The notes under the pieces were generated by a model. The model saw only the letters and a list, made by a program, of their open reading frames with translations. It was not told the DNA's origin and made no database searches. DNA of 29,440 bases from Saccoglossus kowalevskii (lineage: Eukaryota; Hemichordata; Enteropneusta; Harrimaniidae), in contig NW_003143795.1 in assembly GCF_000003605.2 (NCBI RefSeq), forward strand, positions 508,841 to 538,280, given 5' to 3'. A program made the translations under genes and the position numbers. Positions 354 through 29,396 of this stretch are shown piece by piece (the first letter of the stretch is position 1; each line of letters begins with the position of its first letter).

Positions 354-503
354 CTTGGTGAATTTGAAACATTGGCTTCCACATCGAGTTCAGAAGAGGA
401 GAGTCGAGAGAAGCTGATAAAGAGTCATTACGGCAATAGAATAGCTGAATTAACTACTCAGATGCAGAAGTCCGACAGTCAGGCTGTTAATTTCCATGCT
501 GAG
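354..503 (+). CDS. Internal coiled-coil exon, PPP1R21-like
   Basis: A 50-codon exon in phase 0 at both ends, bounded by a tttgtattttcag acceptor and a GAG|gtgaga donor. It begins LGEFETLASTSSSEEESREK and continues through a heptad-like segment, KSHYGNRIAELTTQMQ, to FHAE. An acidic/Ser-rich lead followed by an amphipathic helix is plain in the sequence. From memory, the C-terminal coiled coil of the PPP1R21 family (an endosomal coiled-coil protein) contains a similar 'HYxxRIxELTxQLQxADSKxVxFHAE' stretch; this was not checked by search. The next exon found, at 8793, needs two bases from the preceding exon, so this one cannot splice directly to it. At least one unseen exon must lie between, or this exon belongs to another gene. 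Confidence 0.72.
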
Positions 504-1085
504 GTGAGATGTTCAAAATAAACACTTTTAACTAAACCATGTACATAGTGTAGTGATTGTACTGTACTGATTCCTCTGAAGATTTGAAGAAATGAATGTC
601 AAATTAATGAATTGATTAAATAACATAAACTACATTGTACTATGTGGTCATAATCAACAATGAAGTGATAATATTGACACACATATTACTATCAACAAAA
701 TAAAATCCTAAGATCATTGCAGTACCCTAATGATAAAGAAATGACAGAGATTTGAGTCTACTCTGACAATGACTCAACTCAACTCAGCTCATTCATCATG
801 ATGTTTTCTTGACTGTATACCTGTGTCATGTATGATTGTCATCTAAGACAGATAAACAGACTGGTGTGTGAGTAACTGGAGGCATGCACCCTTCTCTCAT
901 GTAAGCCATGTTTATGTAAATTGGAAGAACAGTGCATGTGATGATGGGCGAGAATGATACATTATTTTAGAAGCAAATAAGTCATTTGCGTCTAAAGTTG
1001 CGTGTACAGACTTCATCATTTCTAATTCTTCCAACCTCAACTTGGCAGTGCACAGTCCGAAAACGGGGACTTATGTTTTGACCTC

Positions 1086-1112
1086 CGTGCGTGCGTGCGT
1101 CTGTGCGTGCGT
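1086..1112 (+). repeat. GTGCGTGC-rich simple tract heading a dispersed repeat
   Basis: A run of (GTGC/GTCT/GTCC) tetramers interrupts AT-rich DNA and stands directly before the duplicated element at 1205. It is probably the 5' part of the same repeat family. Confidence 0.5.
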
Positions 1113-1204
1113 CCGGACCTGTATCTTAGAAATGCCTGGACCAATCACAATCAAACTTCACACATACATCATATATGATATTATACATATGCACGTCAAT
1201 TTGT

Positions 1205-1790
1205 TTCACGCTCTGATTCAAGATGGCCGAATGGCAGCCATTTTTGTGCTAAAAATCATCAAAATCAAGCATTTCTCGGGTGTTTACAGATGGATTTTGT
1301 TCAAACTCAGTATATACATTAGACATTATGGGACCTTGATGCAAATAATTTTGTTTTTCAGATAAGATTCAAAATGACCAACTGGCGGCCATTTTGTTTC
1401 AATGAATGTGGTTCTCGTGCCATATCTCTGACTTGCTTTCACTGATTATGTTCAAATTTTAAATATTCATTATACATCATGTCATAGATAAATAGTTACA
1501 TTGGTTTGACAATCCTATTCTAAATGGCCGAATGGTGGTCATTTTTGTGCTAAAAAATCATCAAATATCAAGCATTTCTGGCATTTATGGATGGATTTCG
1601 TTCAAACTTGGTACATATATTAGACATTACGGGTTCCTGATGCACGGCATTTTTTTTTTCAGATTGAATTCAAAATGGCTGACTGGCGGCCATTTTGTTT
1701 TAATGATTGGGCTTATAGAGCCTACTCTTAAATGCTTTGACTGATTATATTCAAATTTTATATATTCGTTATACATCATGTGATATATAT
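1205..1790. repeat. Two diverged direct copies of a ~290-bp sequence
   Basis: Copy 1 (about 1205-1495) and copy 2 (about 1507-1790) share ordered landmarks at 301-bp spacing. These are a 'atggccgaatgg' start, 'catttttgtgctaaaa', 'tagacatta', 'ctggcggccattttgtttyaatga' and 'ttatacatcatgt'. They are preceded by a GTGCGTGC-rich tract at 1086-1112. This looks like a dispersed non-coding repeat; the short frames inside have no protein features. Confidence 0.75.
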
Positions 1791-3104
1791 ACATGTATTC
1801 AAAATGGCTGATTTTGAAGTACTTGTTTGATGATCAGATACAAATGTCAATCATTTTAATGTTAAAAAACCATATTCCTGACATGGTTATATTCCAGCTA
1901 TATTACTATAAACAAAACTATATTTCTTAAATTTAATAACTAATGGGGACTGTGCCATGCATGGGCTTGTTTTTTATTGTGCTTGTGAAAATCTATGATG
2001 ATGCAACTCTTTTCACAATTTGATTTTCCTCAAAAATACATAATATTCCCTCTAATCCGGCACATGATGAACACAAATGGATGATTTGTAGAGGAATTAT
2101 CATGGTTACAATGTTGAGCCAAAAAAATTGTACTCTTTTCTGAGGTGGTTCTTGGGTGTACTCACTTTTCCTGATTTTACATGTTGAGGCCCCTGGACTT
2201 GGGAATTACGGTACTTATACGAATAGACAAAATTGAGGAGTTGTATTAGTTTACTGGAGGAGGTTTTGTAATTATAAATAAAATTCTAGTAATGTTTTAT
2301 GTACTCATAATCTATATATTTTTGGAATAACTGGACACCATTATAAGAATCTCTGTTGTTCAGCTGAATGTAAAAGTATGCCATGTAATTAGTTCCATAT
2401 ACGCTAGTAGGTTGTCACGACCTATGACCCCTGAATTGATTCATAGTTTGTTGTGACATTAAATTGTGGAACTGTGATGTAACTGTCTTGACCTTTAACC
2501 TCCACTGCTACAGTTGTTACTTTAAATTAAAGTGATAAATTGTCTTAAATCGGTCATTCAGAGCTCACTGAAAGCGTAGGTTCTTGCCCTTAGTGTGTAT
2601 CAGGTGAAAAACCGAGCATTGTTTGTACAGATTACTTGTTTTGACTGGGCCATGCTGATTCAATATTTTGTTACTCACCATAGTAGTTTCTCACTATTTT
2701 TAACTAGCCAGAATGATGGTAGGTACTGTATGCATAAAATTGAATTATAAAAAAACTAAACATCTCATACAATATAGGCAGCTGTCGTCGCGCTGCACAT
2801 GTGCGATATTTTTGTTGATAAACATTGATTTTCCCACAATCCAATGCACTCTTCTAATGGAAATCCCAAGTATAAGGTTTGACCTGGGCACGACTTGCAC
2901 TAGTTGACGCCGGTGACTCTTTCAATACCTCCCAACCACCTAGAAAAAACCTAATTAAAGCTTCGTAACGTCTCAGTTTGTACTTGTTGATCTGCGCAAC
3001 AGTCAAAGTCGCCATCTTTGTTTATATGAGACCCATATATCTTGCATGCTTGTAAATTACATAAGTATATCTATGTTCAAAATAAATTATATTAATTATA
3101 ATAT

Positions 3105-3175
3105 TTCAGTGTACAATAAATACAATTTTTGGTTTAAATGCTCTTCTATTGAAAATGCATTTCTTATAGAACTGA
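3105..3175 (+). repeat. Dispersed repeat fragment, copy A
   Basis: Shares an ordered match with 8097-8167: 'ttcagt', 'acaa(t/c)aaat', 'caatttttg', 'cttctattg' and 'tatagaac/atagaac'. Too short and diverged to classify. Confidence 0.5.
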
Positions 3176-4309
3176 TTGTTTTGATGTACTCGTCTCTAAT
3201 TTTTATATTTTTTGAGTCTGTGAAAATCCCAATTTTGTAGCCAGTAACAAATTTTCTGCTTTCTCACAAGAAAAGTCAGTGACTGCCTCAAAATTTTGCC
3301 TTCATAAAATCATCAAGCTGCAAAAGCAGATTACAATATTTTCTGTAATTCATGCATATACAGACAGACCTTCAAAGATTTCACTTAGTGTCAAGACAAA
3401 AATAAAACTATATGAATGATCTCATATTAAAACTTTAAATGTTCTAAAATGGCTTATGTCTGCTTGACCTTGATATGTTGGTATACAGCAAATTAATGTA
3501 AAAATCTTCACAAGTGAAACCAAAATGTTATAATTGTACACACTTGTAAATTCTTAAATTAATTACATAAAATTAATTAATCTAGAACAATGTCAAAATA
3601 TTGATAATAAAAAAAAATGGAAATATTGTGAATGAGCTCCTAGGTATTTCTTCAATTTCAATATATCTTAAACTACATGTATATATAGGAAGTGAAATAA
3701 TTGTGGTGAAGTAAAAACTGCTGTGTACCAGTCCTGAGTGTAGCATTCCACTGTAACCAGGCAACAAGTCTTTTATCTGAGATATCCAGCTGAAGTCTAT
3801 CATTCACTGCATCAATAAATAAACACTAACTATATTTAAACAGTTTAAAGGCTATTAAAATGCAATAAATTTATTTAGACAAAGTTGAGTGTTTGTTCAG
3901 CCATCAAATGTCCTGTTTTGTAAACCTATGGCTTCCTCTCTGCATTCCCTGTGTGTGACTTACTGCCATTATAAGTGTACGATTACATCTCAGAAAACAT
4001 ACAGTTTCATGTAAAACTGTTTTGATTGTGGTGAAGAAGTTTTCAATTTTAAAATATTTAGTGTTTGGTTTATAGTTTGTTTTTTCAGGTTCTGTAAATA
4101 GGTGTAGATCTTAAAAAAAGTTTAATTTTTATCTCTTTGTGAGTTAATGCTCAAATTACATTTACTTAGTGTTTCTTGGCTGTCCAAACATGTAGCCAGT
4201 TTGTGGCGAGTCCATTCTCTGTTCAATTCAGTTGACATGCGATATTTATTCTTTCCAATAACCTTACAGCCATATAGTGTACAGTAACAAGTAACACGTT
4301 GAACTTTTT

Positions 4310-5110
4310 AGCTCCGCTGTCGACTTTGTCGAGCGGAGCTTATCATATGAGTGATTGTCCGTCGTCGTCGTTCGTCGTCTGGCGTCCGTGTCAATGTTTT
4401 ACTTTTTCGACTTCTCCTTGAAAACTACAAGTCTAAATGCTTTGATACTTGGTGTATATTTGCCTTGGGTAGACCTCTCTAAGATTTGTTCATTTCATGA
4501 TCATATCTTCAATTCTCTAATTTTGGTGAATATTTTTTCTCATTTTTGGTAAAAAGTGATATTTTCGATTTCTTGTTAAAAACCGCAAGTCCAATTGCTT
4601 TGTTATTACATATATAGGTATTACGTGTGGACCTCTCTCACATTTGTTCATTTTGTAATGATATCTTTAATTCTCTAATTTGGGGGAATATTTTTATCAT
4701 TTTTGGTAAAAAGTGATATTTTCAACTTCTTGTTAAAAAACACAAGTCCAATTGCTTTGATATTACATATATAGGTACTACATGTAGACCTCTCTCAGAT
4801 TTGTTCATTTTGTAATGATATCTTCAATTCTCTAATTTGGGGGAATATTTTTGTCATTTTTGGTAAAAAGTGATATTTTCGACTTCTTGTTAAAAACGAC
4901 AAGTGCAATTGCTTTGATATTATTACATATATAGGTACTACATGTGGACCTCTCTCAGATTTGTTCATTTTGTAATGATATCTTTAATTATCTAATTTGG
5001 GGGAATATTTTTGTCATTTTTGGTGAAAAGTGATATTTTCTTCTTGTTAAAAACCACAATCATTTATGGTGAAAAATGATATTTTTGAATTCTTGTTGAA
5101 AACAGCAAGT
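4310..5110 (+). repeat. Hairpin-headed array of ~157-bp tandem repeats
   Basis: A near-perfect palindrome, AGCTCCGCTGTCGAC / GTCGAGCGGAGCT with a TTT loop (4310-4340), is followed by a GTCGTC-rich stretch. Then come at least four tandem units. The landmark 'ttttc(g/a)actt' recurs at about 4403, 4562, 4719, 4876 and 5036, and truncated copies follow to about 5110. Each unit holds 'ggacctctctcagatttgtt' and 'ctaatttgggggaatatttt'. The form is of a hairpin-ended mobile element with internal tandem repeats. Confidence 0.85.
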
Positions 5111-7360
5111 CCCAAAAAAACAAAAACAACAAATAAACAAGGAACTGTTTGCAAGTCTACAGTTTATAGTATTTCACATATTTTTCAAAAACATTATTTT
5201 TTTATGTTTTACAAATATTTCTGTGTACTCCATTTGTTGCTATTTTACTAAGCCTGCCAGTGTTGATTCAGTGATACTGTTTATTGCTGTATTCCTCTCA
5301 TTTAATAGGTTTCCTTGGTTACTAGATAATGATATCATGATATCACAAATTATTGTTTCCTGCTTCTTAAGTGCTTTATGAATAATTTGTAACCATTTAA
5401 ACGTAACACAGATGCCTACAATAAAAATGTTCGATGGAAAACTAATACCTGTATGGTAAAATCTACACCTAAAATCATATGTTCAATCTATATCATACCA
5501 GCCTCTATTTTTTATGAGCTTGAAACTGCCCGTGAATGGTATCCTAGCAACCAGAGTAGCTGAAGCTATGTTATTTCTAATACCAAAGTATTACATGTTT
5601 AAAATAATACTATGGAATGAAAGACACATTAAACAGAACAAAGGTGTCCCATGATTCCATGCAGCTGTTATTGGAATTGACAAACTTTAAACAGAAACTC
5701 AAAGATGTATGGTTGCCTACAAAAAAAAATAGGTTACCTGTACTAACAAAATGAGGTCAATTATTGACAAAGTAGTCCCAAGAGAGTGGTGATATTGGAT
5801 ACTTATTGAGAGTGATCAGGTTACGTGAACCTGAGTGCTTCCTCAACAAAGCCGTCTCCATGCTCAGTGGCAGAACTTTTCATATGTTTATTGTAAATGG
5901 AAGTGAAAGACAAAAGTTGTTTTGAAGAACAGAGAGTTGGTTAAATAAGTTAATTATGAGTTTAGTTTTCAGCTTTTTCTGACCAGTTTTAGCTTTTCAT
6001 CATCCATGTTCTTTGCTTTCCAATCAAAATGTTGACCAAATGTATGAAATAATCATATCATGTCAAACCTTTGAACAATGTCAAGTTCTGTATGTTTGGT
6101 ATAAAATTATCATAAATGGGAAAAAATTACTGAAAATGTAAGAAAAATGTGCTCTAAATTGTGGAGAGTTAATGTCTGGTGATTTAATTAATATTTAATA
6201 TATGAAAAAAGAAAGGAACCAGATGTTTCTTTTATAGGATATATCAGTATCTCAGGAAATTACATTGAATTGATTTGCCTTATGTTGGGCAGACATGTAA
6301 GGATTATTTTGATGGGGACGTAATAAATTTACCTATTGCTAATTTTGGATTTTATTTAAAAAAAAATTCAGACAGCAAATATCTTTTAGTTATTTTGACG
6401 ACTGCCTGTTTCTAATTAAAACTAAGTCTCTTTTTCTTTTTTATTGAGTCCTGAATTATGTGTTCCCTCACACTCTGTAGTGAATGTTTGGGTTGACAAC
6501 AATTACATTTTTGTGTGAATTTATTACCGCTGCCGTGGTAGCCAATATATTCTGATCGGTTTACGCCATGTAGCCATGGTTGTCTGTAAAAATATTCGTT
6601 TGTCGTCACCTGACATTTTTTCCAGTATTTGTGCTTTTTGTGCCATTGCAGTTTATTTTTAGAAATAATGAGCTGTTGTTTATTTATGTGTATTTATTTT
6701 TTAGCAGATTTCATTCATTAACCATTTGTTCATCATATTTTTTGCATAAATGTTGGTAGCTTTTTGCACATTTTAAGGTTTTTTTCATAATATCTTTATA
6801 AATTTTGAACCAATTAGTTACTTTCCATTGGCTACAGGTCTTTATAATAAAAAAAATTGAAAAACATTCTGAAGAATTTTGATTTGTTGAAGGTGACAAA
6901 AGTTGAATGGGTCAAATAATGTTATTATTAAACCACCATTTTCTACTTAATTTTGTATCTACTTGCTTAAATTAAACATTTGTATCCACTTACTCTATTG
7001 ATGTAACGATGCTCAGGATATCAAAATCATAATTAATATTTTATATAATATTGAAAACAGTCAAAATTAGGAAATTGACTGCAGTACAAAATCTTGAAAA
7101 TAAAAAGTCCGATATTTTTACCTTGCCCGTATCATCAAAGATGAAAGGAAAAGTTATATTAAGGGAAATATATTTGTGCCTGTCGTCACTTGCAGACATG
7201 AAATGTCACAGAGGTCGGGTCACACTCTGAAAATACAGCCTGAATTGTATGTAACTAAAGGAAATACATTTTTGGACGTTACTAAATGTGGTCATATTTT
7301 GTGGACACATGAGAAATAGGAAATATGCTGATACATGTAATGTGCATGAAAACTGCTGAC

Positions 7361-7761
7361 CGGTCACTAGTAGCATAGTGGTTGTCGCATCAGACTCATG
7401 ATTGGTAGACCCAAGTTCAAATCCTACCTTAGGCTGAACATCGAAGGGTCGACCCCTACCCTTGGTGAGTGTGCCACAGACTCAATGGAAAGGCCAATTC
7501 CACTGGCTGAGATTCATTCACTAACGAATGCGACTTTGGGGGAACCTTAGTTAAGGACAGCAGGTGCTTGTGTTCGACGAAGCCTGGTTGATGCCAGGAT
7601 AGCACATTGAATTGCCATTTGATAGAGAGATGGCCACACAGCCCTGTCATGTAGTCCCAAACATGAATATGTGTCACCACGAGCACTTTGCACATATCGG
7701 TACTAAAAAAAACACACAACAGTGACACTCAATGTCCAGAACTGTGCCTGGCAAAAAAAAA
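7361..7761 (+). mobile_element. tRNA-derived SINE
   Basis: A box TAGCATAGTGG (7371-7381) and B box GTTCAAATCC (7415-7424) are about 34 bp apart, as in tRNA genes and the RNA polymerase III promoters of tRNA SINEs. The head is followed by a unique body of about 300 bp and A-rich tracts at 7703-7711 and 7753-7761. No intact tRNA cloverleaf or coding frame is evident. The exact 3' limit is uncertain. Confidence 0.75.
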
Positions 7762-8096
7762 GTGCATGTTTATAATGTTGTATGCATTCGTTAACATGCT
7801 AGTATGGGACTGATTGAATGCAGCTGTTTCTCTTGTCTGTTTTATGTCTGTGAATGCTCCCTCAAACACAAATGTTACTCTGATGTGTCAGCATGTTTAG
7901 AAAATACAAATTAATATTTATCTGCCTATTAAAAACACTATGTTTTTATATTCTGATGTCTGTTGTCTCTTCTGCAAGAAGTCAGTACTGACAGTATCTA
8001 TAGTGTATTTTATTTACTGTACCACATATGGAAATGTTATTCACTAAGGAGTTTCCATGATCGAAAGTCCAAATCCAAAGTCATATGTTAATAATT

Positions 8097-8170
8097 CAGT
8101 ACACAACAAATGCAATTTTTGTTTGATATGCACTTCTATTGGTGATGTGCTTCTAATAGAACAAATACGG
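8097..8170 (+). repeat. Dispersed repeat fragment, copy B
   Basis: Counterpart of the fragment at 3105-3175, ending at ACAAATACGGTA. That string is also the right terminus of the inverted-repeat element at 9232-10423. Confidence 0.45.
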
Positions 8171-8792
8171 TAATGTGCTTTACCAACTATGTGACATTGC
8201 TATAATGACCATGTTTCCTCCTATCAAAATGACGAGTCTCTTGTTAGAAACCTTTCACCATAATCACCTGGTTGCTTGGTTTACCTGGATTATCTACTGA
8301 CGCCTAGTATTGCATGCTGTTTGTCTCATAACCAAACTTGAATGAAAACGTGTGGATCTAAAGGCTGTTGTCATTGTAATTGTTCAACAAATTTTAGAAA
8401 ATATTAAAATAATCGAATGGGTGAGTTTGGACAACTGAGTTTCAACTATTTGAAAACAAAAGATTTTTTTTTATGACAGAGAGGGCGCTACAATGTTACA
8501 CTAAGTTTAGCTCTGAATCGCTATAGTGAACTTCTGTTTAGACCTAAATAAAAGATTTGATTTTTAAAAAATAATTGAAAAAATTCAAACAAACAAACAT
8601 GAACATCGCAATACCAGAAACATATATTTTTGTGTGTGGAAATTTTGAGAGGTTTGGGCATCTCTTACCTGACATGTTTCAACCTTTTAATGAAATTTAG
8701 TTCTTTCTTTGGCATTTCTTGACTCCTCTTCATCTATAGAATTATTTAAGACAATTTAAATTTATTTTGTATATTTTTGTTTTGTTTCACAG

Positions 8793-8958
8793 GCTTGAAG
8801 GATTGGTATACCAACAAAAACAAGAAATTGAGCGCCTCAGGAATTTTCATCGACCTCATGGAATGTTTGGAAGTAGTCGAACAAGTACATCTACTAGCCC
8901 CACCCCACCATCTATCAATTCATATCAACCATCATCTCAAACAAACTCACATGATAAG
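8793..8958 (+). CDS. CAP-Gly gene exon: coiled coil and Ser/Pro linker
   Basis: Acceptor tttgtttcacag precedes this exon and AAG|gtgaaa follows it. The first base completes a codon begun upstream, so the incoming intron is phase 2; the outgoing one is phase 0. It encodes LEGLVYQQKQEIERLR, a short heptad-type helix, then a turn into a Ser/Thr/Pro-rich stretch (SSRTSTSTSPTPPSINSYQ). The helix aligns plausibly with the end of the PPP1R21-type coil (QREEID-L), which supports linkage with the exon at 354 if about 60 residues of coil lie in unseen exons. Confidence 0.85.
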
Positions 8959-11900
8959 GTGAAAATAATACATTATCATTTGCATTTGATTTACATGTTG
9001 CTTGTTTCATATAATTTTCGAGTAATTTGCATATTATTTACAAATTACCGGTACATACAAGTTGCATTTAATTTACATATAATTTGCATGTAGTTTGCCT
9101 ACTGTTTGAACAATGGCATCCTAGTTTCATTTCATTTGTTTGTTATGGTTAATTATGGTAAACACTTTTCAGTAGTCGCTTTAGTTTAAAAAGTGTTAAG
9201 TTTTAAAACTGCATTTATTAATATATATATTCTACCGTATTTGTCTTCAATTAGGCGCCACTTTCACTTTCATTTCATGGTGGCGCTTATTTGTGGTTAA
9301 ATTTGAGCAACTTTGTTTCAAATGGCGCTTATTTCAAGCACTTCAAGTTCTAGTACCGGTACAAATGTAACTGTGTTACAAGCCGTTGTTTTTGCTCCAT
9401 TCTGGTGATAGATTATTGGCAATATTTTACATTACAGTCTGACGCTTAGTCACTGTAGCCTTTATTTTAAATACGGAGTAAATGACCCGTTTTCAGACAG
9501 TCTAGAAAGTTATACAAAAATTATCATCCTTTAGAAAACATTCACAGTTTGCCGTACGATCAACAGAAAAATAAAACAAACACAAATGCATCGCTTAGTA
9601 GTCAATGATCATGGTAGCAAAATCCGGTCATGCTGCATTCCACGGTTACGATTATTACTCAGTAGTAATTATAATAACGTACAAAAAATAAAATGCAAGT
9701 AAAATTCAACTTAATTTCATCGTAAGCGAATGATTCTGGTCGCATGTAAACGCTCAACGCGATTCGATATCTGCCATGCTTCCTGTCTAGGACTTGACCT
9801 GGAACGTGTTTTTTGACCTGATAGGTCAAGTCATTAATTAACCAATCAAAATGCTGGATGATGCCAACATGATCAAATTACCATAGCTCATTTAAATAAT
9901 GTATGAACGCAATGCGGAAGTGATTTGCTGATGTTTGCGATATTTTGGCTTTGATTTTGGTGGGAAAAACTGCATGATTTTTTTTCAAATCAAGAAATTA
10001 GTTATTTTTGGAAAGTAAACTGAGCATTTAAAGAATAATTTAACACTGTTCACTGTGACAACAGCGCATTTGAAACAGAACATTTTCGCGTTGTTTTAAT
10101 TTCGTTTTTATGGATATTTTCTACAGTAGACTAAAGGGACATGTTTCAAGAGATTATAGACCGATTTCTTAAAATTTGTTAGAAACAAAACCAATTTTTT
10201 TTTTACATAAAAGCCATTCGTACAGTAACAGCGAGGGACTTCCGCAATCGCGTCCATCGCTACTAACCGGTAATCGGTAGTCGATCCGCCGGCGCCCAAT
10301 TCATGATCATTACGTGCCAAAATTTCAACTTTGTCTGGCGCTTAATTGAGGTGTAAAATACAAAGTTTTTGTGGCACTGGCGCCTGATTGAAGGTGGCGC
10401 TTAACTGAAGACAAATACGGTAGTTTAATTTCTATTTATGAATTTATTGTCATTTTCATTCCAGGAATGTATTAACAGGCCTTGTTCTCAGTGTAGTCAG
10501 TGTTCCTCAGCCTTGTCATCGCCCAAATTAACAAGATCTAACGTAGAGTCACAATCATCACCGTTAGTATCCCCAATACGAAGACCAAGAAATTCACGTA
10601 ATTTTACACAAGGATCAAGTTCAAATGAAAGCATTCCAAGTGATAGTATACCAAGGTCAATACCTCAACAAAATGGAGTGGTGAGAAATATTTTTATTAG
10701 AAGCTCAGTTTCTATATTATTAGTTAGAGATTTACTCTGAGCACAACATCTTGAATTTATACTTGAAGTCAGCTATTCAGTCAGCTTAACGTTACTTGTT
10801 TCCAATATCGACAATGGTTAGATTGCATGTGCAGCACATGTTTTGAAATCATGTGCTTTAAACCATTTAGTGAAATAGCTCACAGTGCTGCAAACTATCG
10901 TAATATTTAGCCGACTGATTGGATGATTAGGAGTCAATGGTGTCCTCTCACAGAATTGATTTTGTAGGGATCCTGAGTTAAAGTGGAATGCTTCAAAATC
11001 AAGTTGAGTTGCTTACTGCCTGCTGGGGACGTCAGTTTTTAAGACAAAAATAAAGTTGCTTATGACTGTATAGGTGTCTTGAGACACAAACAAAAATACA
11101 GTGGCCCTGGCTTCCTTCTGTTTTTACTCTTATTTTATTTATAAAATGTGAACTTCATTTTACCAACATTCAAATTCCATATAGTAAGATGTTTTTCAAG
11201 ATCACTATATCAATGTATGATTCTCTGTTGCATCAATGATGCGCCAGTGAATTACCACAACTAATTGTATCACAACAAATCATTATACATCAGTTGCACG
11301 TCATATTGGTCTAGAGGGTGCACATATTCACAGGTATATTCAGAGATGTTGCACCCAGAGTAAGTTTATTAGGTTGTTTTACTGTATGTGCTTGTTTTAG
11401 TGTGTGCAGGGTTCTGCCCAGCCTGATAAACAAATAGAATAGTGCCGTTCGCCAAGTTTTTGTCCTGGTTGGAAATTCTCAGTGCCGGTCACTAGCAACC
11501 AGCATTTCATAAATTACTGAAAATACAATTTGTTGTGAGAATAATTTGGGTTAATAGTGAGCCTAATGGTATTTATTATTGTGTTCATTAGGTGGCGCAT
11601 AAAAATCGTACATTACCAGTTGAGATGGTCAGCAACTTGCCAAATACAACAACAACAACAAAAAGAGTACATCCCATTGCTAGATGCAGCAAAGAAGTAC
11701 AATGTTCATTGGTCAATGCTGACCAACTAGAAAAGAAATGCCAAGACGGTAAGTGAAATAGATTCATTTTCCCTGAAAATGACAACGCTAACATTTGATG
11801 AAATATTACTTATTATTACCATGAAATATATTGAGCCAATCGACTGACAGTTACTTAAAGCCTAGTCACCTAGGATTCATAATACTTACAATAGCAATGA

Positions 11901-14900
11901 TTTGCTCAAGGAATTGATCACAATGTCAATTTTTCCAAAATTCAAGATGGCCATAGTCTCTGTCAGAGGACAAAGAAAAAAAGACTTTCAAACCAATGAC
12001 ATTTTATTGTCTTGAACACATCCACAGTAATGGGAAATGAAAATATTTAACCTGAACTTGATTCCATTCATCGCCAGAAAAATAGACTTTCAAACCAATG
12101 ACATTTTATTGTCTTGAACACATCCACAGTAATGGGAAATGAAAATATTTAACCTGAACTTTATTCCATTCATCGCCAGAAAAATTCTCCAATTTTCTGG
12201 ATCTTATTGGTACTACTGCAAGGTGATTAGGTTTTGTTTCTATTGTGGTGCTGTGAAGCTCTACTGTAATGTTGTTTGCATATTGACTTCACATTACCTT
12301 TTCCTGCATCTGGTTTTACCAGTGACAGTCACATACTTGTTATCTTCTCTTTTCAGCCAATAATGCCAGAATACAATTAGACAGAGAACTGAAAATCGCC
12401 AAAGATGAAATACAAAGATTAAAAAACAAATTAAAAACATTAAAAGAACTACAAGAGGATGTAAGTATATCATAAGATGCAGTTTTAATTTCAAAATCCA
12501 TTTTTTATATTTTGAACATTTAGACAACAACAACTATGAAACTTGAAAAATATATACAGTGTACTCATAAAAATTATTGTAAATTCAGGATTTTGTAACT
12601 TTTTTTGAATTTATTTTTTTCATCTATGTACATTATAAAGATCTTCATACACATTCTGTCACAATTTTGCAGAATGTGTTTGAATGTACATGTTTTGCAC
12701 TGTAGGCATTTATGTTGTTTTCTGATTCATATTAATTTTGTATTCACAGAGAACTAGAATATGTGAGGTGAGAATAGAGAATGAAGTGAGTTCAACATCT
12801 CATACTGATGACCAAGTTAATCATGATCACTCTGAATCTGAAATGTCTGTTAATTTACCATTTATACCAGCAAGGTAAGCTCAGGGTGGTGCCTTCCTCT
12901 GTTTGTTCCAATTGGTCATAGAATCAATTCTTTCACTTGTACTGTAAATGCATTAATTATTCACTGGATTTTAATTTCATTATTTTCAATATTAAGTAAA
13001 ATCTGCTAAATTAAATTTATGTGAACAAGTAAAATAACAATAAAACTCATTGTTTCTTTGACAAATTTGTGAAATTAAAATACAGTGAATATGCTCAAAA
13101 CATCAAAATAGTGAAAATAAATGGTTTTACAGTATTTAAGGATAGGACCTCAAATAAACTGACACCAAAGATTTGGTATTTTTCAGGCAATTTTTTATTT
13201 GTACAATTCATAAAGCAAAGATTTGTTTTGCTAAATGCATATAGATTTGTTGTTGTTTATGTTTCTAAATCACTGAATGGGATCAGTTATTATTCTTAGA
13301 AAAAAAACACATTGAATTAAATCAGATTGGAAAATACACTTTTGGTAAAGTTTTGTCGATTGTTTCAACTCTGATTTGGTTTTCCTGTATCTTGCAACAG
13401 TGACATAATCTCCAAAACGCCATGTACACTGTTTTCAGAGTGGTTTAGATTTGAACTGAAGAGTACTTGAATGTTTGTACACAATTTATAGCAACATGTC
13501 TCAGACGTCATTTAATCCTGGGAGACCAATAATTTTATCAAGAGCAAGGTTTTAATAGTTGTTCTATGTTTATATGGGTACACCTAATAACCCATTGCCT
13601 CCATACCTGCTAGGTGTACAATACATAAAATAAGTTAACTATCACCCCTTCTCCTTCCACTCCAACTAACTTGGTGCATGTCTGAATATAAGATTTGTGA
13701 ATTTAACAGAATCAAATAATGCTTAAACAGTAACTGTATTTGATTAGTATGAAAATCTATTTATATTTATATGTAATTGTAGTAATTCACATATATTTTA
13801 TCTTTTTCAGTGTTAACAGTAAAACAAAACCTCCAATTGTACCACGTCCACAGAACATGGGTACTTTGGCTTTAACCGGTCCTCTGATAGGTTGTAAGTG
13901 TACTACATGCAACACATTGGATGAAAACGGCTATAAAAGAGTATCATTAAATATTCTAATGGAAAGAAACTCAGTACTTAACCATAGAAAGTAAGAAATT
14001 TTACTTATATATATATATATATTCTCATGATACATCTCCTTTTATTTATGATGATCAACTAAGATTTGTATCAGGGAGGATCATGGGAAATAGAATTCAT
14101 ACAGCGGTCCACTGTGCCTAGCTACAATGCTTGTAATATCTCAATAACCATGTAAATTTTTGAAAACATGTGGGGAATACCCTTAAATCGTGACTTTCAA
14201 ATGATTGATAGGGATAGTGATTGTGTTGACTTCATTTCTATTCAAGATATTGCAACAAGAGGACATAGAATTCATACAACGGTCCATTGTGCCTAGCTAC
14301 AATGCTTGTAATATCTCAGTAATCATATAAATTTATGAAAACAGACCAGGAATACGCTTTAATCGTGACCTCCAAATGATTGACAGTGATTGTGTTGACT
14401 TCATTTCTATTCACAATATTGTAATTAGTTATCAGAATAGTGGCTCATTTAGAATACTGTAAAATACTTTATTTTAGCTGGAATTAATTTTCACTGAATT
14501 TTCATTTGTTTTGTACTTTGTATGAAGTTTATTTCCAAAGACTGTTGACAAGTTAAATGTAATCACTGATTCATTCATTCAGTGTATTTTTACAGTACAC
14601 TGTAACTAAACAGACAGTTTATTCGTTTTGTCCTTCTAAACACAAATTTTATAGTGTAAAGCTGTAAATATTTACAATGTATTTTCAATTGTTGCTGACG
14701 ATTCACAATTATTATTTATAGCCGAATAACAAAAGACTCTATTCTTGTCTTTTTCGCTGTGAACCTACTTTGCAGTACTCTGCTTCTTATTTGGAAGTAT
14801 AATAACATTGTAACCAATTTACTGTGTTTTCAGGCAACCTATTGAATTAGATGACCATGTCGTTGTGAGGGGAGAACGGACCGGTCATGCTAGGTATATA

Positions 14901-17900
14901 GGTCATCTTGATAATGTAGGAACTACACATGTTGTATATGTAGGACTGCAACTAGATGCACCAGGTGAGTTTAGTATATAAGACTATCTGTCATTGGCTA
15001 TTTGAGATTCACCAGGTGAGTTTAGTATATAAGACTATCTGTCATTGGCTATTTGAGATGCACCAGGTGAGTTTAGTATATAAGACTATCTGTCATTGGC
15101 TATTTGAGATGCACCAGGTGAGTTTAGTATATAAGACTATCTGTCATTGGCTATTTGAGATGCACCAGGTGAGTTTAGTATATAAGACTATCTGTCATTG
15201 GCTATTTGAGATGCACCAGGTGAGTTTAGTATACAAGACTATCTGTCATTGGCTATTTGAGATGCACCAGGTGAGTTTAGTATATAAGACTATCTGTCAT
15301 TGGCTATTTGAGATGCACCAGGTGAGTTTAGTATATAACAGTATCGGTTATTGGCTATTTGAGATTCACCAGGTGAGTTTAGTATATAAAAGACTATCTG
15401 TCATTGGCTATTTGAGATGCACCAAGTGAATTTAGTATATAAGAATATCTGTCATTGGCTATTTGAGATGCACCAGGTGAGTTAAGTATATAACAGTATC
15501 TGTTATTGGCTATTTGAGATGCACCAGGTGAGGTCAGTATATAAGACTATCTGTCATTGGCTATTTGAGATGCACCAGGTGAGTTCAGTATATAAGACTA
15601 TCTGTAATTGGCTATTTGAGATGCACCAGGTGAGTTTAGTATATAAGACTATCTGTCATTGGCTATTTGAGATGCACCAGGTGAGTTTAGTATATAAGAC
15701 TATTTGTCATTGGCTATTTGAGATGCACCAGGTGAGTTTAGTATATAAGACTATCTGTCATTGGCTCTTTGAGATGCACCAGATGAGTTTAGTATATAAG
15801 ACTATCTGTCATTGGCTATTTGAGATGCACCAGGTGAGTTTAGTATGTAAGACTATCTGTCATTGGCTATCATAATCTCTAACCATTCAAGGATTGTTTG
15901 GTTTGATAACACAGAGGGCGCTCTCGGGTCTCTGGATTAACATGAATACATAAATCGTAAATCACTTCATTTTCAGGTAAGACAAATTTCACCCAGTGAC
16001 TTTCGGGAATTACAAGTATATCTCCATTCAACTTTTTGTCACTTTTCACAAAATAAAACCCAGATTTTTCACATTTCCCCCCAAAAATTTGATCAAGAAC
16101 TGTACCTAATAGACAAAATTATATAAAGAGGGGAGGCAAGGGGGGTAGCTGGTACGGTTTTACGGGAAATAAAAAGGGCACAATTTACGAAGAAAAAAAA
16201 GACGTTTTTACAGTTTACAGTGTTAACAAATGGAACATTGAATGGTCCGAAGAGCTCTTCGACTCAAATTCTCCGCCATTGCTGCGCCGTGTGAAGAGAC
16301 GCATGCGCATATTACCCTCGTAATGCTCTTCATTCGGTTAGAGGGCCTTTTATGTCTTGACATTCAATTTTGTAGTGAATTGTGTCATCTAGTCGTTTTA
16401 CAGTTTCTAAAATGTAATTTCCCTGGATTATTCTTTACGATTTTTTTATTTGGATGTGAATTTTTGTACGTATATATATACGTATGAGAAAAATGACACA
16501 TTTTTACAGTGTACGAAAACAATATTTGATTGATTACGTTGTACGTCTAGCCTGTGATTACAGAATTACGGAATTTATTTTTTCTATTTACGTTGTACGA
16601 ACAAAAAAATATTGCAATTACGTTGAACGAAAATAACCCTTGCCCCCCCCCCTCTATAAAAAATGTTATGTTTTTTTGTTTCTATGGCACCACTGTGCTG
16701 TAGAATAAAGTTCTAATTGTGCAATTGGTGTTGTTTATTAGGGTACTAGACCAATAGTAAATATATGTGATAAAATTTTCATGCATTTAACCTTTGTTGT
16801 CTTCCAGTGGGACGCCATGATGGTTTTTTGAATGGAAAACGTTATTTTTGGTGTCATCGTAACCATGGAGTGTTTTTACCAATGCAGGACATCATATGTG
16901 TTCTTAACAAAAAGGTGATCATTTGTACATTATAAGATTGTGTGTGTGGCAACCATTTGTAGTGACTTGTATTCCGATAATAGGGGGAGCTATTATATGC
17001 ACTGTAACATCATGATATTCTGAGAATGACAGGACTTGAACTTCAGAGTTGAGAGGGCAAACAGTTTCATGGTTAAGATTGATAAAATTGCTGTCATCAT
17101 AGAAATACTAGGGATTGTTGAAGGGCAACTTTGTTCAGCATCAACACAATTGAGGAAGTACAAGCTTTTGAGTGTGTAGAATCTGTAAATTGTAATACAT
17201 ACACAGTATTGCTGAATGTTACTATTATACCCATGATAGCCAATCAGATTGGCTTATTTCAGGTGGACATATTTAGTATAATAATACTAAATGTTCACCC
17301 ACCTCTGTAGTTCTGTAGTGACCCACATAGCTCATTGTCAACCTGTATGTCCACCTCTGTTGGAATGAACATTTGTATAATGTTTTTTTCTCCCAAAAAT
17401 ATATACATGTATTGCATATGTGTAATTTAAAGTTAGCCACAGCTTGCCCCCCCCCCCCCTCTTCTCTTTCACCTTTCTTTCGACTAAATGAGCACAAAAA
17501 CCCAGATGATGGCTTTGTGTGCTTCCGTTTCTCTGAAATCAGTAGTATAGCCAAGATGGTGTTATTTGTTTCCCATTGCTCTGAACTAGTGTTAATATAG
17601 TTCTCACACTTTTTTTCTATTTTTAGGTCTGCACACAAATGAGCCAGAGACCTAAAACAGGAGTAATACGTAGGGCATCCGAAGACAGTATGAACTCTTC
17701 CAAGACAGTAAACAGTAACCATAGCAATAGTAATGGGTACTATCATTCAAATAGTCATTCACACATGAGAAAAAGAACAAAATCTGCACCAGGTAGAAAA
17801 CTTATAACAGCTGACAGTAATCAATTGAAAGTTAAAAGGTAAGATTTTCTTTTAGTCCTCGTTTCAAATGAACTCTAAAACGCCGGCTAACTGTGGATAT

Positions 17901-22671: not shown

Positions 22672-22677
22672 TTTATT
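22672..22677 (-). terminator. AATAAA overlapping the LRR gene 1 stop codon
   Basis: The minus strand reads ...AAAAAATAAATG, so the TAA stop is embedded in an AATAAA hexamer. If used, the 3' UTR would be only about 20 bases. AT-rich composition makes chance likely. Confidence 0.2.
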
Positions 22678-23830
22678 TTTTTCGCCGACACCAAACAACA
22701 GCGCCTATGACGGCCAATGTCAAAAGTACTGTACCAACAGCGCTACTTATTGATGCCACAATTATGAATGTCAAGTTGACATCATCTGGGCCATCAGCAG
22801 AGCCGGCTTCATAAACCTCCTCAGTTGGGGCTTCGTATTCGAATATTTCAACTTGCTCAGAGTCCTTGATAAAAGTCCTGCACAGTTCCTGAGGTGGAAC
22901 GTCCCACAGATTCATACCCCTTAATTTAGTTGGGAACGCACACGTGATTGTATTGTCTAGAAACATTGGCATTGTGGGCCACACGTCCACAACCCTCTTC
23001 ATGTCACAGTCACATACCCACGGATTGTCTTGTACGTTAAGCCAGAACGAGACTGGATTCGAGACTTCGTAAAACTTGAGAACTTGAATAACGTTTAGGG
23101 GAATGGTCCTAAGTTGGTTTCTATTCAATTCAATTGACCCTATGGTTGATATTTCGTGCATATACGCGGGATTTACAGTTTCGATACGATTACCCTCTAA
23201 ATAAAGATGGACGTTTTCTAACCCTGTAATGTTCGGCATGCGTTGAAGATGGTTGAATGCCAAGTTTATAAATTGCAGAGTCGTGCCACTAAGACTGCTA
23301 TCTCCAATTTCCTTTATAGAACTGTTACTTGCAAAAAGAACTACTAGGTTGGGTAGATGTGAAAACACTCCGTTTTCTAGACTCTCTAAGTTTGGACAGA
23401 ATCCAATAAACAATGTTTGTAAGTAGTTCAATCCTGTGAAGATCCGAGGCGAGAGGCGACGTATGAAGTTCCCTTGCATAATCAACTCACCGAGGCTACC
23501 AAGGCTTTCGAAAGCATCATCATCAATATGAGAGATTCGATTGAATCCGAGATTTAAACTGTATAACTTTGGTAGATTTGTATTAAATGTGTCTTTGGAT
23601 ATCTCTTCTATCTCGTTGTACGACAAGTCAATTGTGTCTGCTTCTGCGGGAAAGTGCCGTGGCACCGTTTTCAGTCCCTGGCTCTTGCAGTTTGCAAACA
23701 ACGCCTCGTCTGGTGCCGTCACACACAGACAGTTCTCTGGACATATACCTTTCCATTCTTGCCACGCATGCGTAGTGGAAGCTATTAGAAGAACAGTAAA
23801 ATACGCAGTACTGTACTGATGTCGCATCAT
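22673..23830 (-). CDS. LRR cell-surface receptor (LRRNT-LRR-LRRCT-TM), gene 1
   Basis: 385 residues in one coding exon, starting MMRHQYSTAYFTVLL at 23830. This ATG is chosen because a 3' splice site (tttatttcag) ends 12 bases upstream and a hydrophobic signal peptide follows (residues 1-22, cleavage near THA|W). LRRNT cysteines are at about 30, 34, 36 and 48. LRRs run from about 65 to 260, with LxxLxLxxNxI motifs such as YSLNLGFNRISHI. An LRRCT follows: NPWVCDCDM (269-277), then TITC and PTKLRGMNLWDV, ending in C317. An acidic stalk (322-350) leads to a transmembrane helix (about 353-380) and a CRRKK stop-transfer tail. Extracellular binding and membrane anchoring are likely; the ligand is unknown. 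A longer frame extends upstream but crosses the acceptor, so it is not used. Confidence 0.9.
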   Translation of the reverse strand: MMRHQYSTAYFTVLLIASTTHAWQEWKGICPENCLCVTAPDEALFANCKSQGLKTVPRHFPAEADTIDLSYNEIEEISKDTFNTNLPKLYSLNLGFNRISHIDDDAFESLGSLGELIMQGNFIRRLSPRIFTGLNYLQTLFIGFCPNLESLENGVFSHLPNLVVLFASNSSIKEIGDSSLSGTTLQFINLAFNHLQRMPNITGLENVHLYLEGNRIETVNPAYMHEISTIGSIELNRNQLRTIPLNVIQVLKFYEVSNPVSFWLNVQDNPWVCDCDMKRVVDVWPTMPMFLDNTITCAFPTKLRGMNLWDVPPQELCRTFIKDSEQVEIFEYEAPTEEVYEAGSADGPDDVNLTFIIVASISSAVGTVLLTLAVIGAVVWCRRKK

Positions 23831-23842
23831 ATGACCTGTGTA
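23831..23842 (-). other. 5' UTR remnant of LRR gene 1 after a 3' splice site
   Basis: On the minus strand a strong T-rich acceptor (tttttttttatttcag, ending at 23843) precedes 12 untranslated bases and then the ATG. This implies a 5'UTR intron. A possible upstream donor (minus strand, gtaagt, near 24557-24562) is present but unproven. Confidence 0.6.
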
Positions 23843-26455
23843 CTGAAATAAAAAAAAAATAATTACTTCTATAATATAAACCTCTCGAATGCTCTCCTTC
23901 AAACATAATTTGGTTTTCGCCACTCTAAATATAGATTTGGCAGAAAATAACCGCGTGTCAACGCTTGATATCTTTAAACTAAAACTTCTTAAAAGCCCGA
24001 CTCAAAAAATCATGAAATCAATTGGAGAGGGGAGAGAGGATATATTCAAATACGCGGAGTTTATTTTAATATAGTGGGTATGATGTTAAATAATCGCTCA
24101 ACGCCGCCGTAGTGTTCGGGAATCAGCGTTTTCGAGTTGGCTATACCAATTAATAAATTGCTATTTTTGTTTGAGTGACTTGTGTTGCTCCTTCTGGTAC
24201 TATACGTCAGTGGCAGGTGATACATTGTACACCATGTTACTTATTTTGTCTAGAGATAATATTTTGAATAGATCGATTGCAAAATTTGAACTATGCACCA
24301 TGACACCAATTAACCGTATCTAGTATGGATTTTTTGAAAGCGTGCTTGTCTGAAATGAACACAGTAATTTCCTTTCCACAAAATTAAACTTCAGAAAATA
24401 TTCAACCTGGTAGGTAAAATACGACATCGCCCTTAATGGTCAGTTTTAAAACACTTGGCGACAACATTGGAAATTGATACTTAACCAAAATGAAAACACA
24501 CTATAGATTGGTTCTCATGTAGAAATAGTGTATGTACTTTTAAAACAATTGATTCTACTTACTAAAATTATTCGGAATGCAGTTTTCAGGCTGTTTAGCG
24601 CCAGTCTCTATATAAAAATACGATTCATCAGTTTGGTGGGAAAGAATAAGTCATATACGCTGAGACATTAACCCTTTAGTAGGCCCACGGCTCACAGGTC
24701 AGGGAGTGGTCATGTATATTATACGCTATGAGGTCAAATAACTGGTAGTTATGAAGCGAATATAACAAGCATCCTAACAGTATACGATACTGGTAGTTTT
24801 AAGAACAAACGATACTTTAAAGCTACCGATCAGGAAAGCATGTCTGAGCGTAAATTAGGGACGGTCCAATAATAATCTTTCAGCATTGGACAGTTTTGCT
24901 GTTAGAGAACAAACAAACAAACTATAAATATATTACAGATCTAATTCTAGTCAGTCACGTGCCTCTCGTGTGGTTTGAATGTTCTGTTTTTTTGTTTGTT
25001 TTTTTTCGTTTTTTGTTTTTTTCGAAAAACGCTTGTATGAATATATTTCTTTGTTTATTAATTTTGCCTACGAATAATCACTGGAAATTCGCCAATAAGC
25101 TGTGTGAATAGTATTTAGAGTAGAAAACAGCGTACAATGTCGAACTAGAAATAGTGTTCTAACATTCGATTGTGGAATGGTGGTCGTCGAAAATGATCGG
25201 TTCGGCAGTGACCGGAAAAGTTCGATTATTCGCATTTTTGGCCAGATTTCTTGTTATAAGTGCACTTTCGTTCCTTCAAATGTCACTTATTGGAATTCAT
25301 ATATAGCATTTAACATTTTTTGCAAAGTTGGAATGCAACTTTCAGGTAGAAGCCATTTTCAATATTTTTCAAAAAATGTTATTTTTTTTTAAAACAATTC
25401 CATAGAACACAATGTTAAAGAAAAGTTGCATATTTGAAACTTTTTAAACACTATTTTTTTTTTCAAATAATTCAGGAAAACAAAAAACATAAGTATCACA
25501 ATCTGAAATAGAAAATGGTGGTAGCGGGTTATCTCTTATTTGATAATCAGTGAATTGTTTAAAATCTTGTATAGAAATGTACCAGTATATCGATAAAAGT
25601 AAGAATACACAGAATGTTCTTGATGTGTATATACAAATATTCTAACTGCCCCCCTCCGATTTCAAACGGCCAATCCTTAATCTGTTTTAAGATACATTTT
25701 TTCGATCCCTTAGTCGATATATTATACGTTATTATGAATTATATATTATATATATTTCATATTAATAACGTAACAGTGCTAATATTTGTACAACCTTATT
25801 TCTATACATTCACAGTTGAATGTGTCATATGTATAGGCATTGTAACTTTACGGTATCAAACTGTTTTTGTTGTTTTGTTTTTTTGCAGCCTGGACGTGAA
25901 TATTTTTGCATTTAAATTCCAATGGAATTTATCACTAATATCTATTCTATCTTCATCCAATTATTCTTTGACCTACTTGACCGTATTTTGACATTTTGAC
26001 ATTTAACAAGTTTCTTTACAGCACACGAATTGTTCCCATTGTACAACCAGACCTGACCCACAGTTATGTAAATATGTTAAATACATGAAGAGTTACTCTG
26101 TATAAAATAAGTCACATGAACAAAGAAACCCGCAATTGTTAGGGGATGGCCACTTCATGCTTTATATTTGAGCTAAAGTTTTGATCTGGTTGAGCCTCAC
26201 AGTAATTAAATATTATCAAAGTTATATTAAAAACTAATATCGAAAATAAACCATAATTATCACACAAATTGCTATAAATAACATTCAATATCCATACATA
26301 ACTCGAAGTTCTTTTTAAGTTCAATTATCCGACTTATCGGAATTTCAGATTGGGATTTCCGTTATTTCCTGTGACCTCTGTTTTAATTCGTATACTTTAA
26401 CATTTGTTTCGTCACTGACCTGTCGAAAAGACTCCTTTACGATAATTGAACCATC
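23843..26455. other. Divergent intergenic/5'UTR-intron region between the LRR genes
   Basis: The head-to-head interval must hold the promoter and first exon of LRR gene 1. A TATATAAAAATA string occurs at 24609-24620 and a minus-strand gtaagt at 24557-24562. No protein-coding exon is recognised. Confidence 0.5.
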
Positions 26456-26575: not shown

Positions 26576-28107
26576 GTAAGTTTTACCATTTTTGTCAAAT
26601 TCACGTGTATAAGTCTCGCTCTGTTCTTAGTAAATTTATCATCAATATTGGAACATGTCAACAAGCTTTTGAAAACACTACAAGGCAATCACTGATGCAA
26701 TTATGAAACTATAACATACATTGGCCCCATCGGGGTATCATAAACGATCTCGACTATCTGAAAAATATCATAATATAAAAGTCATCGCAGTAGGGACAGA
26801 TAGACTTTTAAGTATATTAGAGTAATGTTTATAGATCTCGCGTTACAGGGCCCTGCTGATTCAACACGTATACGATTTCCACGGTCATTGTTAATAGACG
26901 CCTAATGCGATCTTGGAGAGCTGTTGTCCTGAGGCATAAACAAATTTCACAATTAACATAATCCGTAAATACAGAACATTTGACTAATTAAGGGTCTGAA
27001 CGATCGCTTTGGTGTGGGAAATGGTGCACATCTCTTTGGTTGTATTCTAGAAACGTTCTCACAATAGCATTTTGAGTCACGTGATGCCAGGTCTGATATA
27101 AAGAATATTGAATCTTAAAAAAAATAACGTTAATTATGATTTGGTGCATACAGCGTACCTAAAAATGATTGGTAGGGTTCTGGAAATGTCGCCCACATTG
27201 ACGACAATGATCTTGATCGACGCCGGGAAATCTTTTAGTTAGCCAGCTGCCATGGGGCAAAATTCCAACTCCATGGCTGCACTTTGTCAACATCTTCGAA
27301 CTTTTGGTTTTTATTGAAATGATTCACACAAGTTCAGGTTAACCACTTGGCAGCGATAATAAACTAACTGACACTACATCCACTGCGACTGAAATCGCTC
27401 TAAGTATCCATGTTAAAAACAAATAATTGCGTTCGCTGTGTTTGAACAAAAGTGGCACTGTATAAATTATCGTATAATATAAATATTAATTTGGTAATAA
27501 TAATGGAGTAATAACAATACACTAGCTCGTGTAAACCCATTCATTTGTTTATAGCGTACACACAATGACATTGGTGTGATCATTATTGCAATGTTTACAG
27601 CTAAAACAACGTTTTGCAATGCTAAAATCATATATACTAGTAAATGAAGTTGTGTAGATATGTCCTAGTCCCTTCTGGCATTAAACACAATAACCTACTA
27701 TTTCAAACAAAAGAAATGCCTCGTTTTGATCACATTTGTATTGTGGTCTTTGCTACCAATATTGATATAGTTCTCTGTAATCAATTTTAGTTGTTATCTC
27801 AGATTGCAAAATACCTTAGATTATCCGATCATTTAATATCGCACAATCTTCATTCTACTTCCTTTATCGTATACATTTCTAAATTAACATTAAAAATATA
27901 ATGTGAACAACTTTGAGCGCTTTTAAATACCAGTATTCGTTCGATAAAATACTGAAAACTTTAATGCGCATGCGCCCTGGAATTATCTGTACGTACATGT
28001 AATTACAAACTCCTGTTTTGAGTATTTCATCAAACGAATACTATTGTATTTGCAGCCAAAACATTGTTCATTTTACGTTAATGTGATTTGTGTTGTTTTC
28101 ATTGCAG
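26576..28107 (+). other. Probable 5'UTR intron of LRR gene 2
   Basis: Runs from the gtaagt after the candidate first exon to the gttttcattgcag acceptor, with a second acceptor (tttgcag) at 28055. No coding content is seen. Confidence 0.35.
27965..27975. promoter_or_regulatory. NRF1-like palindrome upstream of LRR gene 2
   Basis: TGCGCATGCGC, an almost complete NRF1 consensus palindrome, 153 bases before the receptor ATG. It could mark an alternative promoter close to the coding exon. Confidence 0.3.
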
Positions 28108-28127
28108 ATACCATTAAATACCATACC

Positions 28128-29396
28128 ATGAATAAGGCATACACGAAATGTATGCTGTATTTGATGACGTCAGTTTTAATGCTACATTGCGTACAGGCAG
28201 GATGTTGGGATTACTGCGCATGTGCTCTTGGTAACTATGGTCACGATGACGAGTTTTACTTGGATTGCAGAGGAAGGCAGTTAAAATTTATTCCTAACGG
28301 ATCCTCCCATGGCGTCCAAGACTCGCTGTTGTCGGAATCTGCAGTGGGTCCGAGTCCGTCTTCCGCGGTGCGGCACAGATTGGTCTCTGTTGTTCCCTGG
28401 TCCAATTCTCGGACCTTGGCCAGTGAAGTTATTCACTATGCATGGTTCACTCATAACAACCTAACTAAGCTACATTCTAGAGAATTTCAATATTTACATA
28501 TTTTAATCGAGTTGCGTTTGTCATATAACCATATTACCGAAATACAGCCTAATGCGTTTGAAGGCTTAGTCCACGTGGAAACTCTGGATGTATCGCATAA
28601 CAAACTGATGGATGTGGACATGTCGCTGTTCTTGGGAATGGTGGGATTGAATGAATTGTCTTTAGCCCACAACTCTATTCAGAATACATTAATGGATTTC
28701 GATGCATTCTCTGGTACCAACAGTTCCAGCGAAACCCTGCCTATAGAAACGCTAGATCTCAGTCATAATCGCATCGTTAACTTTCCCCCAGGGTTCTTCG
28801 ACGTGTTCACCAGTTTACGTGACTTAGACGTGTCGTATAATCGACTCTTACAACTACCTCTCATTTCATTTCCATCATTTTCCAGATTCGCACATAATAA
28901 CATAAATAAACTTGAGAATTCTAAAATCGGCGACATGTCAAAGACAAGGTTACTGGAACTGAATAATAACAATCTATCATACATTAACCACACCACGGCA
29001 GCGATGTTGGAGATTTATTCTAATCCGAACCCTGACCTTGAGGTTATCAGCTTTGACAATCCCTGGCGATGTGACTGCGTCATGTTAAAACTACGCGAAA
29101 CATGGTCCAGACACCCCATCTTTCTCGCAGACGCCATCGAGTGTCAAGAACCCACTAAGTTAAGGGGACGGAATTTCTGGCAAGTTGATGAAACTGAACT
29201 GGTTTGTGGAAACGAGGAGGTTGAAAAATCAGTGACAGCGCCAACAATGTTGATTGTATGTGTGGTGGTGTCCAGTCTTGTGACACTGCTGCTCACGCTG
29301 GTGGTGGTGGTTATTGTGTGTCAGTGCCGATCAAAAAGATACAATATGAATAATTCTCCTAAAATTGAAACGACCGAAATGGACAAACAGGGGTGA
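28128..29396 (+). CDS. LRR cell-surface receptor (LRRNT-LRR-LRRCT-TM), gene 2
   Basis: 422 residues in one coding exon; stop TGA at 29394-29396. The start MNKAYTKCMLYLMTSVLMLH is preferred because a 3' splice site (gttttcattgcag) ends at 28107 and a signal peptide (about 1-25) follows directly. LRRNT cysteines are at 26, 30, 32 and 47. An atypical block covers residues 58-100. LRRs run from about 101 to 300 (e.g. VETLDVSHNKL, IETLDLSHNRI, LRDLDVSYNRL). The LRRCT has NPWRCDCVMLKLRETW at 311 and ECQEPTKLRGRNFW near 339, ending in C360. The transmembrane helix spans about 373-397, followed by CQC and a 22-residue polar tail. It shares the PTKLRGxNxW cap motif with gene 1 and is likely its paralogue, divergently transcribed. 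Confidence 0.9.
   Translation: MNKAYTKCMLYLMTSVLMLHCVQAGCWDYCACALGNYGHDDEFYLDCRGRQLKFIPNGSSHGVQDSLLSESAVGPSPSSAVRHRLVSVVPWSNSRTLASEVIHYAWFTHNNLTKLHSREFQYLHILIELRLSYNHITEIQPNAFEGLVHVETLDVSHNKLMDVDMSLFLGMVGLNELSLAHNSIQNTLMDFDAFSGTNSSSETLPIETLDLSHNRIVNFPPGFFDVFTSLRDLDVSYNRLLQLPLISFPSFSRFAHNNINKLENSKIGDMSKTRLLELNNNNLSYINHTTAAMLEIYSNPNPDLEVISFDNPWRCDCVMLKLRETWSRHPIFLADAIECQEPTKLRGRNFWQVDETELVCGNEEVEKSVTAPTMLIVCVVVSSLVTLLLTLVVVVIVCQCRSKRYNMNNSPKIETTEMDKQG

Follow-up and report, generated by a model that had tools for sequence, protein, structure and literature searches.

Tandem arrays that repeat an exon's own splice donor are already in print for human genes, and the array described here is a further case. 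The intron-18 VNTR of ABCA7 has a 25-bp unit in about 12–427 copies, and its first GT is the donor of exon 18 (PMC5954066). In the excerpted text of that report, one-unit retention accounts for 2 ± 1% of transcripts independently of VNTR length (the text's 'respectively' being so interpreted), transcripts with a premature stop rise with cycloheximide, and longer VNTRs are accompanied by increased skipping of the exon that follows and by lower expression (PMC5954066). In CBS, according to excerpts of a single report, the 31-bp VNTR c.1444_1467+7(16_21) comprises, by its HGVS name, 24 exon and 7 intron bases in 16–21 copies, and 844ins68 is a 68-bp duplication at the boundary of intron 7 and exon 8, tolerated owing to a strong preference of splicing for one of the two sites (PMC2630376). 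Another minisatellite supplying several splice donors is known by its title, and is cited as interfering with splicing (PMC3618361). The Rogers model describes intron gain through tandem duplication of AGGT-containing segments (potato RdRp), and 24-bp AGGT repeats of fission yeast have introns across four and two copies (PMC4974935, in excerpt). TERT VNTR6-1 was considered as a precedent and set aside; the excerpted source describes it as a G-quadruplex VNTR, not as copies of a donor.

The window analysed here, a stretch of 29,440 nt of the hemichordate Saccoglossus kowalevskii, carries such an array at the 3′ end of a predicted CAP-Gly exon:

14834..14964, + strand: CAP-Gly exon, 131 nt, ending CCAG|GTGAGT (CAP_GLY match when joined to 16808-16914; phase fits the neighbouring exons)
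14954..15870, + strand: 51-bp minisatellite, 18 copies, copy 1 overlapping the final 11 exon bases (Tandem Repeats Finder and in-register cutting)
16808..16914, + strand: next CAP-Gly exon, 107 nt, with acceptor TTGTCTTCCAG and a weak donor, AAG|GTGATC (-6.7 kcal/mol)

Tandem Repeats Finder placed the array at 14954-15870 with a period of 51, 17.9 copies, 95% matches and a score of 1662. Cut in register, it resolves into 18 head-to-tail copies, 16 of them 51 bp long, with copy 9 at 53 bp owing to a 2-bp insertion and copy 18 at 48 bp, its end having been set by us at 15870. A first-pass annotation, made from the letters alone, had described a 51-bp unit repeated about 18 times across the donor of a CAP-Gly exon, and this was borne out by both procedures. 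It had counted ten exon bases per unit and started the array at 14955; there are in fact 11 (AGATGCACCAG, 14954-14964), and the start moves to 14954. The consensus unit is AGATGCACCAG|GTGAGTTTAGTATATAAGACTATCTGTCATTGGCTATTTG, the exon bases followed by the intron part. In nearly all units the boundary reads AGATGCACCAG, or else AGATTCACCAG (two copies) or AGATGCACCAA (one copy). The donor core CAGGTGAGT is intact in 15 of the 18 copies, as had been noted and as the copy-by-copy comparison agrees, and GT is present in 17. Copies 10 (CAAGTGAAT), 12 (CAGGTGAGG) and 17 (CAGATGAGT, in which GT is lost) depart from the core sequence.

Pairwise identity among the copies, with the copy 9 insertion removed beforehand, averages 0.954 with a minimum of 0.882. 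Six copies match the consensus throughout, whereas the other 12 carry changes of their own or shared ones. Copies 8 and 11 have three changes in common, copies 2 and 9 one, and copies 12 and 13 one, which suggests block copying or exchange inside the array. The earlier view that near identity reflects recent expansion or homogenisation is consistent with these values, that is, with a mean identity of 95% and six consensus-identical copies.

Assignment of the donor to a CAP-Gly exon, also proposed in the first-pass annotation, is supported by two results. When 14834-14964 and 16808-16914 were joined, the product (QPIELDDH...LDAP|VGRHDG...NKK) matched Pfam CAP_GLY at 64 bits (cut-off 26.5), and a chain of five predicted exons (12750-12874, 13811-13990, 14834-14964, 16808-16914 and 17627-17838) gave an open frame of 251 codons, the two other frames containing many stops. 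The five-exon protein retains the CAP_GLY match, at 60.6 bits. Among solved structures, the best sequence relatives are CAP-Gly chains with the names CLIP-115 and CLIPR-59 (E up to 0.01; 33 distinct sequences). Since the 11 exon bases of the unit encode part of this conserved domain, the exon is taken as the probable source and the intron copies as its derivatives. An exon-like stretch at 354-503 (+), upstream on the strand of the CAP-Gly gene, matches Pfam PPP1R21_C at 59.5 bits.

Comparison with the human arrays shows shared features and several differences. As in the ABCA7 and CBS types, the unit length lies within roughly 10–100 bp, the first unit holds the donor of a coding exon (here a predicted one), and that donor is repeated. 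As in ABCA7, the array begins at the exon's own donor, and the excerpted report describes a donor one unit downstream that keeps 25 bp and leads to a premature stop (PMC5954066). The ABCA7 unit, however, starts at the GT and shifts the frame with its 25 bp, whereas the unit here adds 11 exon bases, measures 51 bp (17 codons) and carries an in-frame TAA. The exon bases in each unit and the 17-codon unit are particular to this array. Length variation and RNA have been measured for ABCA7; the Saccoglossus array was analysed in one sequence. The CBS 31-bp VNTR likewise has a unit spanning an exon end and its donor, but, as excerpted, that unit is mainly exon sequence, is 31 bp long and is polymorphic in people (PMC2630376). 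CBS 844ins68 also duplicates a splice junction; it is a single duplication in which, according to the excerpt, the distal copy is favoured, and the title cited there concerns 3′ splice site selection (PMC2630376).

The repeated donors and the first stop codon are located as follows:

14965..14970, + strand: donor 1, GTGAGT, the sole donor predicted to keep the CAP-Gly frame open (1/18 products open), with the strongest U1 duplex among the six exon donors scored
14979..14981, + strand: TAA, in frame with the exon, at which every donor 2-18 product first stops (17/17)
15016, 15067, 15118, 15169, 15220, 15271, 15322 and 15373, + strand: donor copies 2-9
15426 (CAA|GTGAAT), 15477 and 15528 (GTGAGG), + strand: donor copies 10-12
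15579, 15630, 15681, 15732, 15783 (ATGAGT, no GT) and 15834, + strand: donor copies 13-18 (copies 2-18 span 15016..15839)

The duplex with the U1 tail was predicted at -11.7 kcal/mol in 15 of 18 copies and at -11.6 in copy 12, whereas the five other exon donors scored gave -4.5 to -9.7 (four lie in the five-exon chain; the fifth, at 503, is unplaced). The donor of copy 10 fell outside the best 40 GTs between 14001 and 17000 in the ranking by U1-tail duplex. Each of the 18 donors was then joined to 16808. The product from donor 1 was open, and the other 17 all stopped at one common codon, the TAA listed above. Donors 2-9 add exact multiples of 51 nt and keep the frame after the array, but the stops are encountered earlier. 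The CAP-Gly part terminated at this TAA scored 19.4 bits, under the cut-off. The description of the array as a set of equal donors therefore holds for predicted strength in most copies, and the claim that only the first is productive agrees with the predicted products.

The constancy of CAGGTGAGT had been singled out as notable, but uniform mutation yields much the same. In the nine donor columns 4 of 162 cells were changed, against 18 of 753 elsewhere (Fisher p = 1). When the 17 distinct changes were placed at random columns, 14.6 ± 1.7 intact donors were expected and 15 were observed, with 4 of the 17 changes falling in the donor against 3.0 expected; with so few distinct changes, a neutral history and weak selection give indistinguishable outcomes. 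Purifying selection on the repeated donors is thus unsupported, and nothing in these columns points to selection favouring or disfavouring the extra donors. Their conserved look is as recent copying would produce, and equal rates of change in donor and non-donor columns are as expected for unselected copies.

The reading we consider likely is that of an unselected, recently homogenised minisatellite that is spliced mainly at donor 1 and carries its extra donors as passengers. A stretch across the junction, with 11 exon and about 40 intron bases, would have undergone tandem duplication, and slippage or unequal exchange would have enlarged it to an intronic minisatellite. Its surplus donors would be removed with the intron, since the spliceosome would mainly use donor 1, the one next to the real exon. 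If a later donor, most likely donor 2, were used now and then, the product would contain the premature TAA and would probably be destroyed by nonsense-mediated decay. Predominant use of the first donor, with minor leakage and decay, is suggested by the requirement that the CAP-Gly domain stay intact and by the behaviour measured for human ABCA7. By analogy with ABCA7, donor 1 should be dominant and donor 2 should account for a few percent; any length effect would be expected on the 16808 exon with its weak donor. The abundance of other tandem arrays nearby is in keeping with this origin. A 51-bp segment drawn at random from the gene span would include a complete donor with a probability of about 3%, taking six donors in 9 kb, so that accidental capture would be unremarkable at genome scale.

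Against this reading, where two donors are equal the intron-proximal one is often used, and splicing rules as such give no preference to whichever of several equal donors lies closest to the exon. DOK7 is a case in which the intron-proximal donor of a pair was preferred, yet it was also the stronger, and giving the two identical sequences weakened the preference, according to the excerpted report (PMC5585400). The array amounts to a natural series of 17 GT donors, of which 15 share one 9-base core, spaced at 51 bases (once 53) and facing one acceptor. As each unit includes exon bases, the sites differ in position and not in strength, and counting transcripts donor by donor would gauge the part that position plays in the choice between equal donors.

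One alternative, which we regard as unlikely, is that copy number tunes expression, the extra donors competing for U1 so that longer arrays yield more premature-stop products or more skipping of the 16808 exon. The early stop in each of the 17 products from later donors would suit this, as would the weak donor of the next exon (-6.7 against -11.7 kcal/mol), the length effects on exon skipping and expression in the ABCA7 excerpt (PMC5954066), and the title of the 2001 paper by Lievers, which ties the CBS 31-bp VNTR to reduced enzyme activity. No constraint is seen in the donor columns, however, and in ABCA7, as excerpted, one-unit retention is independent of length, and hence there is no tuning via donor choice there (PMC5954066). 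The first-pass annotation had offered a choice between an enforced first donor and noisy splicing in which copy number tunes expression. With retention in ABCA7 near 2% and independent of length, this is not the natural choice. Of its overall interpretation, the equal predicted donors, the single productive one and the recent expansion are supported, and the notable constancy is not.

Active enforcement of donor 1, whether by exonic enhancers, RNA folding or U1 spacing, appears improbable. It would account for donor 1 alone being productive in a series where CAGGTGAGT is identical in 14 of the 17 later copies, so that strength cannot decide, but ordinary exon definition may suffice. Predicted folding gave z = 0.23 for one unit, -0.50 for a pair of units and 1.49 for the stretch with the exon and donor 1. 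A comparison donor at 8957, being out of register, was set aside, as was a 1037-nt fold for want of a shuffled control. By predicted unpaired probability donor 1 ranked 6th of 18 in an 80-nt window and 4th of 18 in 250 nt, and was near zero, like most copies, in 150 nt. The most open donor in all three settings was the mutated copy 10, and a single-copy form gave unpaired values similar to those of the array. Folding that hides donors 2-18 was accordingly rejected, donor 1 having no consistent advantage in predicted local folding.

The same intron holds a sequence resembling a recursive splice site, noticed after looking:

15966..15982, + strand: recursive-splice-like site TTCATTTTCAG|GTAAGA, cut 15976|15977, 106 bp downstream of the array end

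It fits an AG|GTRAG fusion of acceptor and donor, and is best treated as a lead. Stepwise removal would first take out the array by joining donor 1 to 15976|15977 and would then splice the donor so restored, CACCAG|GTAAGA, to 16808, a route that we consider quite doubtful. The donor half scored -11.0 kcal/mol. The acceptor half scored 7.6, second in the intron but 33rd of 1399 AGs on the + strand, on a matrix built from eight visually selected acceptors, of which those at 353, 8792 and 10464 were not placed in the five-exon chain. The eight scored 3.5 to 14.5 when held out. The true acceptor at 16808 scored 13.9 as a member of the training set and 3.5 held out, below the 15976 site. A first-order Markov model of the window minus the array gave an expectation of 0.09 such sites per strand, with one seen on + and none on -, although for a site spotted after looking the chance over both strands is nearer 0.2. 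The intron is merely 1.84 kb long, and the site alone would not make donor 1 preferred.

An assembly artefact, the true genome having a different copy number, is very unlikely. Six consensus-identical copies and 95% mean identity are typical of what would raise that concern, such arrays being hard to assemble, but changes, private or shared, occur in 12 of 18 copies and a 2-bp insertion in copy 9, which makes stutter of a single copy unlikely.

In the Rogers model, as in this array, tandem duplication of AG|GT multiplies splice signals (PMC4974935, in excerpt). Here, in contrast, it is the donor of an existing intron that was multiplied, the predicted intron ends being donor 1 and 16807 rather than two units, and the AGs at the unit ends are poor acceptors. 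Two of them scored -1.2 and -4.5, placing 394th and 700th among the 1399 AGs, none was among the top 12 acceptors of the intron, and they lie below the lowest held-out acceptor (3.5). The other AG of the unit (TTTGAG) was likewise low, at 1.7 (15518) and 0.4 (15620). By these scores the units are improbable as new acceptors, and intra-array splicing or intron gain by this route appears unlikely. We give very little credence to the idea that the array and the 15976 site together form a self-correcting splice ratchet, in which splicing from donor 1 to a unit AG, or re-splicing after use of a later donor, would restore the correct mRNA junction because the unit boundaries repeat the last 11 bases of the exon, and excess donors would be repaired instead of wasted.

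Two open reading frames run along the array on the + strand (14956-15429 and 15486-15875, 157 and 129 aa), repeat MHQVSLVYKTICHWLFE and are probably due to chance. A protein-coding role for the array was rejected, as the frames lie outside that of the exon and are interrupted between the two stretches. A 119-aa piece of the first had no Pfam match over the cut-off (best 16.5 bits against 25). Most units contain TATATAAG and CAGGTG, which we take to be TATA-box-like and E-box-like, respectively, and the array as DNA could bind transcription factors. The unit had no exact 44-base match among viral contigs, which is expected for a eukaryotic intron and little informative.

Tandem Repeats Finder reported three further arrays over 200 bp in the window, at 4469-5059 (157 bp × 3.7, 591 bp), 11974-12185 (102 bp × 2.1, 212 bp) and 14086-14421 (175 bp × 2.0, 336 bp), and three more under 75 bp. 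The four long arrays make up about 7% of the window, and the locus seems prone to tandem duplication. Long leucine-rich-repeat open reading frames occur at 22673-24001 (-) and 27948-29396 (+), with Pfam LRR_8 matches of 83.5 and 90.1 bits, and both have, as judged by eye, a hydrophobic stretch near the C-terminus.
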